Source: Lactobacillus acidophilus (GTDB lineage: Bacteria; Bacillota; Bacilli; Lactobacillales; Lactobacillaceae). From it: 64,000 nucleotides of DNA. Of the stretch, positions 2,817 through 43,919 are shown piece after piece (position 1 is the first letter of the stretch; the number at the start of each line of letters is the position of its first letter). The translations under genes and the position numbers were made by a program. The DNA is taken from assembly GCF_034298135.1 (NCBI RefSeq), contig NZ_CP139575.1, positions 806,001 to 870,000 on the forward strand, in the 5' to 3' direction. Below the pieces are notes generated by a model. The model worked only from the letters and a program-made list of their open reading frames with translations. It was not told the origin of the DNA and did no database searches.

Positions 2817-5800
2817 TTATGATTTTTTCTTCTTAACACCTGATAATCCGATTAAACCTATCATTCCTGCCGTTGCTCCTAGAATTGCAGCTGCACTGTC
2901 ATTCTTTTCACCTGTTTGTGGAAGCTCTGCTTCAGGAGTTTGTTCATTCTTAACTACAGCAGCTGCAGTTGGAACAGTCTTATCTTCCTTTTCTGGAGTG
3001 TTATTGCCCTTAGCAGTAGGTGCCTTTGGTGCATGTGGAGCTGGAGCTGGTCTGTCTGGTTCTTCCGGCTTTTCACCATGTGGTGCTGGAGCCGGTGTAT
3101 CTGGCTCATTCGGTGTTACCGGTACATCTTCTCCGTGCGGTGTTGGAGCTGATGTATCTGGTGTTGTTGGAGTACTTGGCTCATTTGGAGTTACCGGTAT
3201 ATTCGGCGTTACTGGCGTAGTTTGTGGTGCGTATGGTACTGGCGTATCCTTGCCTGGATCGCTTGGAGTCACCGTTGGCACACTTGGCTTGTAACCTGGG
3301 ATAGTTGGTACCGGTTCATTTGGCACTACCTTAGTTGGATCATTCGGATCGGTTGGGTAGGTTGGCGTTGGTACGTTTGGTATTGGCTTACCATTTGGAT
3401 CTACTGGAATAATCTTTCCGTTGGCTGTGTAGTTTACAGTTACGATCTTATTCAAGTCCTCTGGGGTAATTGTAGTATTACCTGCAGTACGCTTATCTGC
3501 ATGGTAGCCCTCAACCACTGGGGTATCTACATTGCCAAATGTATGACTGGTTACATTCCAAGCACCGGTACTAATTACCTTACCAGTTACATTATCAACT
3601 ACAGCTGTTCTAGTAAAGGTAAAGCTTTGTACATTATCCTTAGGAGTATTGTTTCCTGCCCCAGTATAATGAATAGTTTGAGTACCAGTCTTACTCAAGT
3701 TATCCTTACCGGTTGTATCTGGCCACTTAGGTCCATCTGGATCGTTAGGGTTAATTGGTTCACCTGGCTTACCTGGTTTATCAGGTATTACAATAGTTGT
3801 TCCATGCTTCAAGATAACTGTGTAAGTCTGAATGGTGCTGTCATCATTATCAAATGTCACACCATCTGGAAAACCATTATGAACCAATACATATCCTTTG
3901 TTTTCAAGATTTTTGATTGTATCAGAAGTATTATAGTCTACCTTGTCTCCTGCTTTACCAATCAAATTTCCTGAACTAATAATTACTTTGTTACCTTCAT
4001 CAGCATCAATGTAATTTACTACAGCTTTTTGATCTGTAATTGGATTTCCTGGAGTATATGGAACTAGAGTATCCGTAGTAGGATCTCCTGGTGTTACTGT
4101 TGGAGTATTTGGTGTGTATCCTGGAACTTTTGGTACCGGTTCATCAGGTATTACCTTAGTTGGATTTGTTGGATCATTCTTGTAACTCGGAGTTGGTGCA
4201 TCTGGAATTGGTGTAGTACCATCTGGACCTACCGGTACAATATTACCAACTTTCTTGTAAAGAACTGTAAATACACGATTACGTTGATCTTCACTAGATT
4301 CACGAGTAGTAGTAAATCCTCCGGCCATGTATTTTCCATTATTGTTAGTATAGCCAGAAACAGCTACGTAACCGGTAATTACTGGAACATCAACAACAGG
4401 AAAGTCTGTGCTTATTGCATTCCAAGTACCAGTTTGAACCTTCGCACCAGTTACTTCATCATAAGCATCACCTGTATAAGTAAATGTAAATTCTTGCAAT
4501 TCAGATTTATGTAATTCATTACCTTCATCATCTACATACTTAACGATCTGCGAAGCTTTAACTTCTTGCTGCTCACGAATCACCTGACCATTCTTAGCAT
4601 AAACCACAGTAGTTTCGCTTGTTGGATTATCAACAGTTACTGTAACACCATCAACCACGATTTTATCTGCATGATGGCCATCAATCGTTGGTGAGAACAC
4701 ATTATTAAACTTATGACTTTCAGGAGTCCATCCCCTATCATCGATCACTTGACCAGTTACATTATCAAATACAAGTGTATGAACAAATGTAACATTTTGA
4801 ACATTATCATCAGCTGCCTTATTTCCATCAACGTAAACGTAATGAATAGTTTGATTACCTTGTTTAGTCAATCCCTTAGTGTCAGTATCGCTTGGCCACT
4901 TAGGCCCGTTGGGATCATTTGGATTAATTGGTTCACCTGGCTTACCAGGCTGATCAGGAGTAATCGTGGTTGTTCCATGCTTCATGTGGACTGTTATAGT
5001 AATATTTTGATCAGCAACAATTTCTGCTGGGACATTACCATCTGTTCCTACATATACATACCCCTTATTAATCAAGTCGGTAATATTTTTGTTAGTCGTG
5101 TAATCGATCCTAGTACCTTCATCTTGTACTCCAGAGTTATAACCAACATCTGGAATAGTTTGATTACTGGTGTCATCGTGGAAAATTACTTGTATTGAAC
5201 CTTGAATTGGAGCATATGGAACCGGAGTATCTTTATCAGGATCTGTTGGTGTAACTATTGGCGTGCTTGGTCTATAGCCAGGAATAGCTGGCACTGGTTC
5301 ATCCGGCACTACCTTCGTTGGATCTGTTGGATCTGTTGGGTACTGCGGCGTTGGTACATTCGGAATTGGATTGCCAGCTGGATCAACTGGAATAATTTTA
5401 CCATTTGGTGTGTATCTTACTACCAGCATCTTGTTCAAATCATCTGGTGTAATCGTTGTACCACCAGCATTCCGTTTATCTGCATGATAGCCCTCAACTA
5501 TTGGAGTATCAACATTACCAAATGTATAACTAGTTACATTCCAACCACTAGTGCTAATTACTTCACCAGTTACTTTGTCAATCACAGCGGTTCTAGTAAA
5601 CTCGAAGTTTTGCACGTTATCTGTTGGAGTTTTACTACCTGCTCCTTCATAATGAATTGTTTGAGTACCAGTCTTAATCAAGCTATCTTTTCCAGTTTCA
5701 TCTGACCACTTAGGTCCATCTGGATCATTCGGATTAATGGGATCGCCTGGTATTCCTGGTTTTTCTGGGGTTACAGTTTGTGTACCATGTTTTAATACCA

Positions 5801-37564: not shown

Positions 37565-39658
37565 CTATTTCTTAATAACTTCAGCTTGTACTCTCAACGT
37601 ACCATCAGCATTTTGATCCAAATATACTCCTTGAATTTCTGGCACAAAACCTGGAAATTTTTCAATTGCATGTGCCAAAACTTCGAAGTACTTTTGATCA
37701 ATTGTGCCCCACTTTTCACCAGGAGCTACAATAAAGACTCCCGGTGGATATGGCAAAGCACCTTCAGCTGCGGTTTCACCTACCACATCTTCAAGGTTGA
37801 CTACTTTATTTTCATTACGCTTAAACATTTGATCAGCTTCTGCAGGAGTCATCTTGTAATCTTGCATCCCCGGCTTTTCAAATAGTTCTTGCTGCAAAAC
37901 AAAAGTATTATTTTCTTTATAGTATTCGTGCATTTCTTGACAAAGATGCTTAACAGTGTAGCCCTTGTAGCGATCAGGATATTCTTTGTACAAAACTGGA
38001 AGGACATCCTTTACCAAACCATCATCGTTATAATACTTTTCAAACTTCAAAAATGCATCAAGCAAGGTATCAAGTTCTTCTTTAGTATCACCTGGTGTTA
38101 GCAAGAACAAAAGCGAATTCAAGTCGTTCTTTGCACGAATAATATGATTTTCCATCAAGAATTCTGCTACAACTGCACCTGGAATACCTGTTTCTTCATA
38201 TTTAGCATTCTGGACATCAATACCAGGAGTTTTTACCGTAATCTTGAGTGGATCGATCATTGCTTCGCCTTTACCCATCTTAGTAAACCCATGCCAATTA
38301 TCTTCTTTGCTCATATTCCAATACTTAGCATTAGTTGCCAATTCATTAGTCGGAATATCTAAAAAGTTAACTGGAACAAATGGCTTAAATAATTTAGACT
38401 TCTTTAGAAGTTCCTTACGCCATTCAATACCCATACGCAAGATTTCATCCCACCACTTTTTGTTACCTTCACCAGCAGTAACATAAGAGTTAACAGTCAA
38501 AGATGCATAAAGTGGATAGGCATATGAAGAAGTAACAAACTTCAAGTATTCATGGTTAAAGTGCTTGTGGTCAACATAGCGCTTTTGGCCTTGAATATGG
38601 GAGTCCTTCTTCAAAATTTGAGAAGCCTGAGCCATACCAACTTGTTGCTTGTGCAGTGATTGAGTTACCAAAATACCAGGATCATCAGGCCCTAGGTTAA
38701 GGAGTAATGGTGATAAGTGTTTCATAATTGGAACAAATTCTTCAAATCCGCCCCATGCACAATCGAATAAGATGTAGTCACAAAGTTTTCCGATTCGATC
38801 AAGAATCCACTTAGCATCATAAAATATACCATCATAAGTTTCAGCTTGCACAATGGCTAATCTGAATGGACGCTTTAATTTAGCTTTTTTTGGATCAACT
38901 TTGGCAATTTCAGCTCTAATTTTATCTTCTGTTAAAAAGTCAGGGTCCATTTCGCCAATTAATCCCAAAGCATTGCGATCAGTTGGAATATATACAGGCT
39001 TAGCACCGCTCATAACTAATGCGCTATTGTATAAGGACTTGTGATTATTACGGTCAAATAATACTAAATCACCTTCAGACAAAAGCGCACTTGCACAGAT
39101 AGAATTAGCACTAGTTGTACCATTCGTACAGAAATACACTTTATCAGCATGATAAGTTTCTGCCGCCTTTTTCTCTGCGTCAAGTGGTGTACCCGTATGA
39201 GTCATCGTATCACCCAATTGAGGAACGGTATCGCTTGTATCTGCAAACATCATATTCTTGCCAAAGAACCTATTGAATACTACACCAGCGGGATGCAAAT
39301 CAAGGTATTGACCATTATGGTGACCCGGCGTAGTAAAACTAATCGGTTTAGCCTGAGCGAAATTAATCAAATCAGTTAAAAAACCGGGCACCATTTCATG
39401 TTGATAGTTCTCCGCTTTTTGAATTATATCTTGTTTTACTTTTGAATCAACTTGCTGCTCTACTTCAATCACAGGAATCGGAAACCCAGATTGTTTTTTT
39501 AATTCATCAGCTTTTAATTTAGCTAAGATATCATTTTGCTTAATGACAATAGCTGCAAGCTCCGCACTATTTTCAGCTTGACCAATTGGAACTAATGTCC
39601 AATCTTTTAATTTATCGATACTAACATTATTTCCAATAGCTATTTTTAAAAAATCCAT
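37565..39658 (-). CDS. Inducible ornithine decarboxylase (Orn/Lys/Arg decarboxylase group III)
   Basis: This 697-residue PLP enzyme should convert ornithine to putrescine and CO2, consuming a proton. It has the SLHKQQVGMAQ motif (PLP lysine near residue 337), FDCAWGGFEEF (cofactor Asp) and SFTTPGHHNGQYLD. Its size and domain order match the Lactobacillus 30a-type enzyme, with an N-terminal wing domain slightly shorter than the ~730-residue reference. Lysine or arginine as substrate cannot be excluded from sequence alone. It is divergent from an APC permease that is a candidate ornithine/putrescine exchanger. Together they would form an acid-resistance and polyamine module. Confidence 0.9.
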   Translation of the reverse strand: MDFLKIAIGNNVSIDKLKDWTLVPIGQAENSAELAAIVIKQNDILAKLKADELKKQSGFPIPVIEVEQQVDSKVKQDIIQKAENYQHEMVPGFLTDLINFAQAKPISFTTPGHHNGQYLDLHPAGVVFNRFFGKNMMFADTSDTVPQLGDTMTHTGTPLDAEKKAAETYHADKVYFCTNGTTSANSICASALLSEGDLVLFDRNNHKSLYNSALVMSGAKPVYIPTDRNALGLIGEMDPDFLTEDKIRAEIAKVDPKKAKLKRPFRLAIVQAETYDGIFYDAKWILDRIGKLCDYILFDCAWGGFEEFVPIMKHLSPLLLNLGPDDPGILVTQSLHKQQVGMAQASQILKKDSHIQGQKRYVDHKHFNHEYLKFVTSSYAYPLYASLTVNSYVTAGEGNKKWWDEILRMGIEWRKELLKKSKLFKPFVPVNFLDIPTNELATNAKYWNMSKEDNWHGFTKMGKGEAMIDPLKITVKTPGIDVQNAKYEETGIPGAVVAEFLMENHIIRAKNDLNSLLFLLTPGDTKEELDTLLDAFLKFEKYYNDDGLVKDVLPVLYKEYPDRYKGYTVKHLCQEMHEYYKENNTFVLQQELFEKPGMQDYKMTPAEADQMFKRNENKVVNLEDVVGETAAEGALPYPPGVFIVAPGEKWGTIDQKYFEVLAHAIEKFPGFVPEIQGVYLDQNADGTLRVQAEVIKK

Positions 39659-39698
39659 CTATTTCCTTTCTAGGTTTCATATAAATCTCGTTATCATA

Positions 39699-39726
39699 TT
39701 GCAAAACTTAAATAAATCTTTATAAT
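39699..39726 (+). promoter_or_regulatory. Promoter of the APC permease gene
   Basis: TTGCAA (39699-39704) and TATAAT (39721-39726) are 16 bases apart. Transcription from here would give a leader of about 160 bases before the permease ATG. Confidence 0.65.
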
Positions 39727-39817
39727 CTTTTTACAGAACTGTGCATTTGTTTTACTTATTCATAAAATAAAGCACATGTATATAACAAATTATATAAATA
39801 TTGGGGGTTTTAAACAA

Positions 39818-39856
39818 GTGCATATGCCATGTTCTCCTCCAAGTATGGAAGTTTAA
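39818..39856 (+). CDS. Possible 12-codon leader peptide before the APC permease
   Basis: GTG 39818 (or ATG 39824) opens MHMPCSPPSMEV ending at TAA 39854-39856, with GGGGG 10 bases before the GTG. The ORF spans the left arm (39835-39846) of the hairpin that masks the permease SD, and it includes a Pro-Pro pair, a context that can slow ribosomes. The arrangement resembles translational-attenuation leaders. Translation has not been shown. Confidence 0.35.
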   Translation: MHMPCSPPSMEV

Positions 39857-39888
39857 GTGTTGAAAATTGAATAACTATACTTGGAGGA
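39835..39888 (+). promoter_or_regulatory. SD-sequestering hairpin before the APC permease
   Basis: TCCTCCAAGTAT (39835-39846) is perfectly complementary to ATACTTGGAGGA (39877-39888) with a 30-base loop. The right arm contains the GGAGGA that is the permease SD, so the folded leader would block initiation at ATG 39896. A ribosome on the short upstream ORF would cover the left arm and release the SD. Confidence 0.65.
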
Positions 39889-39895
39889 AAATTTC

Positions 39896-41368
39896 ATGTC
39901 AGAAGAAATTGAAACTATTAATTTCGAACCCGGCAAAAAGCATTATATGAGTTGGCCAGTCATTGCTTTGATTGACTTTGTTACTATTATTAGTTTTGAA
40001 AATATTTTTTATCCATTTCAAAACCAAGGATTATCCGTTGTTGTTTCTTGGATCTTCCTTTTATTTGCTTATGTTATTCCTTATGCTTTGATGTGTAGTC
40101 AAATGGGGTTGACTTTTAAAGATCAAGCAGGTGGACTTGCTTCTTGGGTTCGTCATTCATCAAATGATACTTTAGGTTATTGGACCTCTTGGATGTATTG
40201 GGTACAAACCGTCCCTTATCTAGTTGACGTATCCAATTCAGTTATTGTTTCATTCTCTTGGATTATTTTAGGCAATAATACTTTAGACAAGCACATGTCT
40301 ACTTTCTGGTTCGGAATCTTAACATTTGTAATTATTTTGGCTTTTATCCTGATAGAAAATGCTATTAAGAACTCACTTGAGCTTCTTTCTTTAATCGGTG
40401 GGGGTGCCATGTTCATTATGTCTATGCTGTTTGTCTTACTTGCAGCTTGGGCCGTTATGCATGGTCATCATATTGCTACTCAGCCATTTAACTTAAGTGC
40501 ATTTAAACCATCGTTTAGTTTGAGATATTTCTCAACTACTGGTTTATTGATTTTTGCTATGTCTGGTGCTGAACTTGCTGCGCCTTACATTGTACAAATG
40601 CGAGATCCAAAACACGAATTTCCTAAAGCAATGTGGATGCTAGCTATTATGACTGGCTTTTTAACCATCTTTGGTACTTTAGCATTAGCACTCTTCTTTA
40701 ATGCTCACCATATTCCACACGACTTTAAGATGAACGGACCTTACTATGCTTTCCAACTTTTAGGGGAAAGTTTAGGCTGGGGTAAAGTCTTAATGTACAT
40801 CTTTGCCGTCGTTCAAGCCATCTTTATGATGGCACAATTAGCCGTGTTACTAGATGCATCTAGTCGTGTATTCGCAGGTGACGTTGCCGATAAGTACATG
40901 CCTAAGTGGCTTACCGGCAAAAAGGACAAGACAGGACGTCCGATCCACTCTTACACTTTGACTTGTGGCTTGGCTTTATTCTTGCTTTTACTTACTGGTA
41001 CTTTACCAAATATCAATTCTATTTATAATTGGTTATTAAACATTAACGGTATTATTTCACCATACAAAACTTGTTGGGTATTCTTTGCTTTTATCATGAT
41101 GCGTATGCACCAAAAGAAATTTCATTCCGATTATGTTTTTATAAAAAATAGAACGGGTGCCCTAATCATGGGTTGGTGGTGCTTAATCTTCACTTTCATC
41201 TGTGCTACCTTAGGTTTTATCCCTCAAGAAGCAGAAGCTACATTTGGTAGTACCGCATTTAATCACCAATTGATCATGAATATCATCACAGTTACCGTAC
41301 TCTTTGGATTAGGCTTCTTATTGCCTTGGCTACGTAGACGTGAAGAAAAACGTGAAATGAATATATAA
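39896..41368 (+). CDS. APC-family amino acid permease
   Basis: This is a 490-residue transporter with about 12 membrane helices. The first helix region (SWPVIALIDFVTIISFENI) and the later MSGAELAAPYIVQMRDPKHEFPKAM are typical of the amino acid-polyamine-organocation family. Start ATG 39896 follows GGAGGAAA at 8 bases; an upstream TTG at 39881 lies in that SD and is rejected. It is divergent from ornithine decarboxylase, which makes ornithine/putrescine exchange an attractive guess, but substrate specificity cannot be read from the sequence. A terminator follows. Confidence 0.88.
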   Translation: MSEEIETINFEPGKKHYMSWPVIALIDFVTIISFENIFYPFQNQGLSVVVSWIFLLFAYVIPYALMCSQMGLTFKDQAGGLASWVRHSSNDTLGYWTSWMYWVQTVPYLVDVSNSVIVSFSWIILGNNTLDKHMSTFWFGILTFVIILAFILIENAIKNSLELLSLIGGGAMFIMSMLFVLLAAWAVMHGHHIATQPFNLSAFKPSFSLRYFSTTGLLIFAMSGAELAAPYIVQMRDPKHEFPKAMWMLAIMTGFLTIFGTLALALFFNAHHIPHDFKMNGPYYAFQLLGESLGWGKVLMYIFAVVQAIFMMAQLAVLLDASSRVFAGDVADKYMPKWLTGKKDKTGRPIHSYTLTCGLALFLLLLTGTLPNINSIYNWLLNINGIISPYKTCWVFFAFIMMRMHQKKFHSDYVFIKNRTGALIMGWWCLIFTFICATLGFIPQEAEATFGSTAFNHQLIMNIITVTVLFGLGFLLPWLRRREEKREMNI

Positions 41369-43718: not shown

Positions 43719-43793
43719 AAAAAACGTCCACTCCACCCCTTGGGATAAAGTAGACGTCATTAGATTTCTCGATTAACGGTGAACGTCATCACC
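43719..43793 (-). promoter_or_regulatory. Fluoride riboswitch (crcB RNA) with terminator
   Basis: On the minus strand GGTGATGACGTTCACC (43793-43778) is the conserved first stem of the crcB motif. AATGACGTCTAC, which closes the pseudoknotted core, follows. The expression platform is a terminator: AGTGGACGT (43732-43724) pairs with ACGTCTACT (43757-43749), with CCC/GGG inside and six T after it. The terminator stem uses part of the aptamer 3' end, so fluoride binding should prevent termination and switch on both crcB genes. Confidence 0.92.
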
Positions 43794-43919
43794 TTTTTAC
43801 TTTACAAATAAAAATATACAACTTCTTTTTTTAAATGGCAAGGTTTAAGTTGGAAAATAATTTAGTAACAATATACTTGATGCTATAATAAAAAGAAATA
43901 ATTAGAAAGGAAAAATACT

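Follow-up and report, generated by a model that had tools for sequence, protein, structure and literature searches.

The locus described here raises the question of how translation of an amino acid permease can start when its Shine-Dalgarno (SD) sequence is buried in a stem, and what role a short open reading frame (ORF) running over the opposite arm of that stem might have. The window, i.e. the whole stretch of 64,000 nucleotides that was analysed (positions 806,001 to 870,000 of Lactobacillus acidophilus contig NZ_CP139575.1), carries the permease gene on the forward strand (39896..41368; Pfam AA_permease_2) with an ATG start codon at 39896-39898. The best resemblances of the permease in NCBIfam were to YjeM/GadC/TyrP, all below cut-off, and a PDB sequence search gave no match at E <= 0.001. 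A putative ornithine decarboxylase (TIGR04318 lacto_ODC_hypo, above cut-off) is encoded divergently from the permease on the minus strand (37565..39658), with a PF06838 protein beyond it. The L. acidophilus gene pair LBA0995/LBA0996 is presumably the counterpart of the permease and decarboxylase of the window. This pair is listed for stress resistance in a table of a review (PMC12999724).

By direct reading, a leader ORF of 12 codons, MHMPCSPPSMEV, was located at 39818..39856 of the forward strand, with a GTG start at 39818, a TAA stop at 39854-39856 and an SD of its own, GGGGG, at 39803..39807 (+), which in the upstream alignments reads GGAGG or GAGG in many relatives; the same ORF was obtained in a motif-free ORF search. 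It contains the Pro-Pro codons CCT CCA (39836..39841, +), of which the second, at 39839-39841, corresponds to the Pro common to 56 distinct leaders and is the presumed pause codon. Sequence reading and folding placed the left arm of the stem at 39835..39848 (+) and the right arm, which includes the permease SD GGAGG (39883..39887, +), at 39875..39888 (+). Positions 39835-39846 and 39877-39888 are perfect complements and form 12 bp around a 30-nt loop, and one G-U and one G-C pair extend the stem to 39848/39875 (14 bp with one G-U). An earlier note on this DNA had claimed that the permease SD lies inside a perfect 12-bp stem with a 30-nt loop and that a 12-codon ORF with its own SD runs over the left arm; both were read directly as claimed, with exact coordinates for the stem.

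The MFE of the segment 39780-39910 was -29.6 kcal/mol (RNAfold; z = -2.57) and equal stability was reached in 3 of 200 shuffles. When SD-covering stems were ranked for those 31 genes of the window, out of 47 crude gene calls, whose upstream stretch measured at least 60 nt, the longest was that of the permease leader with 13 Watson-Crick pairs, and the next two had 9. No terminator-like site was found between leader and permease in the window (0 intrinsic terminators), and no Rfam family matched over the leader at gathering score, so there is no known riboswitch or T-box match. At a relaxed threshold 39650-39960 gave 13 weak matches, all below gathering score, nine of them to microRNA families. 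The sole Rfam match of the window at gathering score was a fluoride riboswitch (RF01734, 46.9 bits, 43744-43802, minus strand) directly ahead of two small ORFs for membrane proteins on the same strand, which presumably are a fluoride-exporter (CrcB) pair.

A probable promoter precedes the leader (39699..39726, +), consisting of TTGCAA at 39699-39704, a spacer of 16 nt and TATAAT at 39721-39726. The consensus scan as such found matches to the -35 and -10 sequences at chance level in this region (2 found, 2.5 expected), and the TTGCAA/TATAAT pair recurs among the Lactobacillus and Companilactobacillus rows listed of the upstream alignment. In the same two genera the stretch corresponding to 39760-39817 (TTATAT..., GAGGTT, ACAAGTG) is well conserved beyond the SD and may be the site of a further element.

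For comparison, 80 loci with a related permease were kept. A short leader ORF was present upstream of the permease in 56 of these 80 loci and in the window; it was absent at L052 and at 23 loci of paralog or outgroup permeases with 39-51% identity. Peptide statistics were calculated for 56 distinct leaders (L007 was dropped as a duplicate of L005), the leader starts being picked by us among in-frame alternatives. One Pro was common to 56/56 leaders, which is partly by construction given that the first leader scan demanded P[PG] in the ORF, and this loose scan also matched other peptides at 12 of 24 control loci. The motif-free search found an SD-led short ORF within the chosen interval in 51/56 orthologs, with a mean of 1.02 each; 49 of these were scored as having the motif ORF, and at L033 and L041 it is the same ORF with another start; within its limits it gave no ORF at L018, L024, L039, L055 and L081. 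Among the controls 7/24 had an ORF by this search, encoding other peptides, one of which (L062, MNLPPKNPK..) contains PP too. Conservation of the short ORF, one of the checks proposed in the earlier note, was thus found among the relatives.

The common Pro is directly preceded by another Pro in 47/56 leaders and Lys is found at position -2 in 47/56, the commonest core being K-P-P-N (30/56). The peptides of the window's group (MHLPCSPPG.. and similar) have a CSPP core without Lys, most Companilactobacillus leaders read MK.NSSLLTLKPPN.., and many other Lactobacillus leaders read ..VLKPPN.. or ..QLKPPN... Liquorilactobacillus leaders contain ..HKPPN.. or ..NKPPN.., those of Ligilactobacillus M..NKHPG.., and those of Lapidilactobacillus and Lacticaseibacillus NKAPG, NKGPG or NKPP cores. 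The leaders are 10-38 aa long, with 7 to 17 residues up to the common Pro in the type linked to ornithine decarboxylase (ODC). All four bases occur at the third position of the Pro codons (0.45 and 0.39 for the commonest), and the CC of the common codon is at 1.00. The invariant core columns in a 26-row alignment (A2) are AA, CC, CC and AA, which are positions one and two of the Lys, Pro, Pro and Asn-or-Lys codons, and the third bases of the Lys and Asn/Lys codons beside the prolines vary.

The pairing of the leader with the permease SD was examined in the same set. The Pro codon pairs with the SD zone in 47/56 folds, compared to 29.4 (22-36, 20 rounds) after shuffling of the spacer, in which only the bases between the Pro codon and the SD were permuted; it is unpaired with the SD in the remaining nine (L005, L017, L028, L033, L035, L043, L047, L051 and L079). 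The register from Pro to SD recurs across relatives. Two loci, L018 (C. nantensis, 3173-3500) and L039 (Lactobacillus sp. UCMA15818, 3265-3490), have strongly folding extra DNA between the arms, giving a Pro codon-SD spacing of 294 and 179 nt, respectively, versus about 43 nt, yet the MFE fold pairs the Pro codons with the SD in both.

Co-variation of the two arms, likewise among the checks named in the earlier note, was found as well, so that the first of the note's two refuting conditions, a lack of conservation of stem or ORF, did not occur. Outside the Pro/SD core the mean stability of the leaders' own arms was -5.45 kcal/mol, as compared to -2.13 (sd 0.23) for swapped arms and -2.94 (sd 0.28) for arms swapped within clades (n = 54; L018 and L039 were left out for their long insertions, as was L007, and the clade labels were our own). 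The stability of the own arms was matched by 0/5000 swaps, both overall and within clades. Co-variation was weakest in Companilactobacillus (own -3.59, cross -2.28). RNAalifold gave no consensus pair on the 26-row MAFFT alignment, probably because the arms are out of register in this alignment; the covariance model R1 was therefore built from sequence only, without consensus pairs, and the arm-swap tests were used instead.

The earlier note had also pointed to the neighbouring ornithine decarboxylase, and this association holds in that a putative decarboxylase lies within the fetched stretch at 51 of the 56 leader-bearing loci. At the other five (L038-L041 and L043, i.e. Liquorilactobacillus and one unclassified strain) leader and permease stay together in other surroundings, for which the ORFs around the leader were listed at L041, L043 and L038.

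The effect of a ribosome on the SD was examined with a folding model. The mean unpaired probability of the SD over the 56 loci was 0.25 for the free RNA and 0.23 when the ribosome sat on the leader start, as compared to 0.53 when it sat on the Pro; in the window the latter position raised it from 0.00 to 0.72. The change modelled for a ribosome on the Pro was above 0.2 in 36/56 loci and 0.2 or less in 20/56, some values being negative (e.g. L029, L051 and L079).

Given these findings, the element is very probably a conserved attenuator that controls translation of the permease. In the default state the hairpin, whose left arm consists of the Pro-Pro codons and the next leader codons, would bury the permease SD. 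A ribosome paused at the invariant Pro (assumed to be in the P site) would occupy the left arm, whereby the SD would be released and the permease translated. The nascent peptide at this point (N/H/L-K-x-P in most relatives and CSPP in the clade of the window) would be the arrest module, and the residues before the core, which are conserved only within permease subfamilies, may tune the arrest or sense the signal. That the pause is encoded by the peptide at the Pro core is likely, and we hold with similar confidence the reading as a whole, in which a leader-peptide pause at the invariant Pro frees the permease SD. Of the attenuator as proposed in the earlier note (short ORF, Pro-Pro pause, release of the SD), the ORF, the Pro and the stem have thus gained strong comparative support; the pausing itself we infer, as we do its place at the Pro, its dependence on a signal and the switching on of the permease.

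Four other explanations were weighed. The one that survives best, a possible but less probable alternative, is that the core is an XPPX/XPX motif, so that what the leader senses would be the activity of EF-P or how fast Pro peptide bonds form in general. To our knowledge XPPX stalling needs no Lys at position -2, and the Lys kept there in most leaders argues against this explanation, as do the 9/56 cores with a single Pro (KHPG, KAPG and KGPG). It is favoured by the Pro-Pro cores in 47/56 leaders and by findings in Escherichia coli, where stalling at the tested motif PPN is relieved by EF-P and EfpL, which have XPX motifs among their targets as well (PMC11611912).

Plain translational coupling, in which any leader ribosome, translating or terminating, would open the stem and the leader would set the permease level with neither arrest nor signal, is rather unlikely. 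The model agrees with it in one respect, since the SD opened about equally with the P site anywhere from five codons before to five after the Pro, and in the window every P site from five before to four after, the last sense codon included, opened the SD to 0.51-0.76. The Pro is thus not singled out by geometry; it is the conservation of the peptide that singles it out as the putative pause site, and a core peptide kept with free third codon positions is not needed by coupling. Once the P site is at least six codons beyond the Pro, the SD is closed again in the model (mean 0.30 or less), and 31/56 leaders have their last sense codon that far from the common Pro or farther, which makes termination unlikely as the event that generally opens the SD. 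At L011 (C. futsaii) and L031 (C. formosensis) the leader ORF extends about 23 nt beyond the chosen permease start; there, read-through ribosomes would cross the permease SD and paused ones would not.

An attenuator responding to amino-acid starvation, in which a shortage of charged tRNA for Pro, Lys or Asn would keep the ribosome waiting at the core codons, is disfavoured and improbable: the Pro codons do lie on the left arm with Lys and Asn codons alongside, but just one Pro is common to all leaders, entire clades have other residues in place of the K, the N or the first Pro (CSPP, KHPG, KAPG), runs of a single codon are absent and the window has no terminator. Finally, that an anti-SD stretch (CCNCC) alone makes the pairing and the ORF is incidental is most improbable, for although CC.CC pairs with GG.GG and 29.4 of 56 folds still pair after spacer shuffling, the Lys and Asn/Lys codons of the 26-row alignment all keep their AA and differ in the third base, the Pro codons are free at their third position, and both the start and the SD region of the ORF itself are conserved.

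The preferred reading, a peptide-encoded pause at the Pro, leads to the question of the signal, and the leaders of other permeases bear on this. The genome's own paralog L002 (49% identity) has the leader MREEFKNKSPAFSFICGRSV upstream. For the L002 subfamily in the genus (L002 and L130-L158, the 30 loci returned among the matches listed), leaders of the type K(F/C)KNKSP were seen by eye at 16 loci and none at 14, and their arms co-vary weakly (own -8.31, swapped -7.12, 54/5000 swaps as good; n = 13). Among 20 upstream stretches of other permease copies ten had NNSPP, NPPP, NKPP or NKSP cores and ten did not; the motif-like ORFs of L159, L160, L161, L175 and L176 were discounted by eye on account of overlap with a gene start or the lack of a leader-like place or SD, and the leaders of L151, L155 and L170 were read directly from the upstream sequence. 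NKPP-core leaders were also found in two other families of the order, f9 (L191 and L192, genomes G436 and G464) and f3 (L189, genome G425, and L219, L224, L225 and L227), the leader being absent within f3 at L190/L223, L220 and L222. A further set of 29 loci, several of them repeats, contained 13 with and 15 without a leader and one unassigned (L237), and the more distant relatives in the order (L195, L196 and L198-L207) had no leader where a start was found.

A search with the R1 profile over 301 genomes of the family returned 30 loci (L098-L127), 26 of which were the same permease, i.e. all 25 at E <= 1.2e-4 and L124; the others were L123, L125, L126 and L127. At E <= 0.1 some match, mostly weak, was obtained in 176/301 genomes, and no second gene family was revealed by R1 among the loci returned. 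Given that the paralog leaders came from reading upstream of the paralogs, R1 misses divergent members.

In a tree of 135 permeases (quick method; the placement of the long branches L213, L210, L212 and L003 is unsure) the leader was present in 79 rows and restricted to one clade of 120 (SH-aLRT 100), within which it was found in every main branch but not in every row; it was absent from the sister group of 15 rows. The leader label changed 8 times on the tree, as compared to 43 in shuffles. These labels were our own, with L188 scored as having none because its start was not found and with L193 and L194 repeating L138 and L137. The simplest reading of this distribution is an ancestral leader with several losses, and the putative attenuator is thus older and wider than first claimed, extending to paralogs and to two other families of Lactobacillales.

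Among the neighbourhoods of such copies that were tested, the decarboxylase was found only near L211 and L213, both loci of the ODC type, and was absent around L208, L209, L210, L212, L214, L215, L216 and L128; around L189 and L191 the tested stretches likewise contained no ornithine decarboxylase. Similar cores thus precede paralogous permeases around which the stretches examined have no decarboxylase. A signal specific to ODC is therefore not the most economical reading, and that ornithine or a polyamine is the signal must be regarded as doubtful. There are two candidates. In one, the N-terminal residues would read the substrate of the respective permease, which might be ornithine or putrescine in the case of the ODC-linked copy; in the other, the core would respond to a slowing of Pro peptide-bond formation in general. 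As only 7 residues have been made at the Pro in the shortest ODC-type leaders, the sensor would have to lie near the peptidyl transferase centre. A tentative idea is that the N-K-x-P leader is an ancestral device of one GadC/YjeM-like permease clade in Lactobacillales in which peptidyl transfer at proline acts as the sensor, so that its slowing would switch on several stress or amino-acid permeases at once, the N-terminal residues of each leader providing the tuning. Causes of slowing considered here include low cytoplasmic pH, EF-P or polyamine status and the permease's own substrate in the tunnel.

The best-known cases of translational attenuation by arrest peptides concern genes for drug resistance and secretion and a few genes of metabolism. 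In the open literature, with subscription papers mostly outside and judged by titles and the starts of abstracts, no published description of such a leader in lactobacilli was recognised, in agreement with the earlier note, nor was this leader recognised in the literature on arrest peptides, SpeFL and Pro leaders in general. Its occurrence in several genera and three families points to an undescribed set of very short leaders before amino-acid permeases and makes directly testable the question of what a Pro-stalled ribosome senses in lactic acid bacteria.

SpeFL/ORF34, the leader of speF in gamma-proteobacteria, has 34 aa with a HIRRT core (DUF2618) and controls a decarboxylase operon through Rho, RNase G and the RBS, its translation helping to unfold a structure that hides the RBS (PMC6386406). 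The present leader is similar in being linked to ornithine decarboxylase physiology and differs in preceding the divergent permease instead of the decarboxylase and in its length of 10-38 aa. Identity with SpeFL was ruled out by this difference in the gene controlled and by the HIRRT core, which by eye was in none of 57 leader peptides. In the RAPP-like arrest peptides (ApcA RAPG, ApdA/ApdP RAPP, SecM RAGP) the third motif residue, Pro in ApcA, ApdA and ApdP, is in the P site at the stall (PMC10987492, PMC12992588, PMC10951233), and the general (RQH) motif is given in one of these papers as (R/Q/H)-(A/G/D)-(P/G/S)-(P/G) (PMC10987492). Some relatives here come close in reading NKAPG, NKGPG or NKHPG, but the leaders have Lys for Arg, are far shorter and precede a transporter and not the Sec/YidC machinery. 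Membership in this family was rejected by eye on the motif, which reads CSPPS in the window and mostly KPPN elsewhere, with KAPG/KGPG close but carrying Lys. The mRNA of the eukaryotic antizyme inhibitor has a polyamine-responsive uORF with a Pro-Pro stall, which resembles the proposed device in tying such a stall to polyamine physiology and differs from it in being eukaryotic and releasing no SD. In the Erm leaders (ErmBL, ErmCL) a ribosome stalled on the left arm releases a downstream SD from sequestration. The present leader shares with these a short ORF with its own SD upstream of the gene to be controlled, a hairpin that sequesters the downstream SD with its left arm inside the leader ORF (47/56 folds) and a short nascent peptide at the putative stall (7 to 17 residues up to the Pro); unlike the Erm systems it has neither a drug resistance gene downstream nor an Erm leader sequence, and in the proposed attenuator the arrest codons would themselves be the anti-SD.
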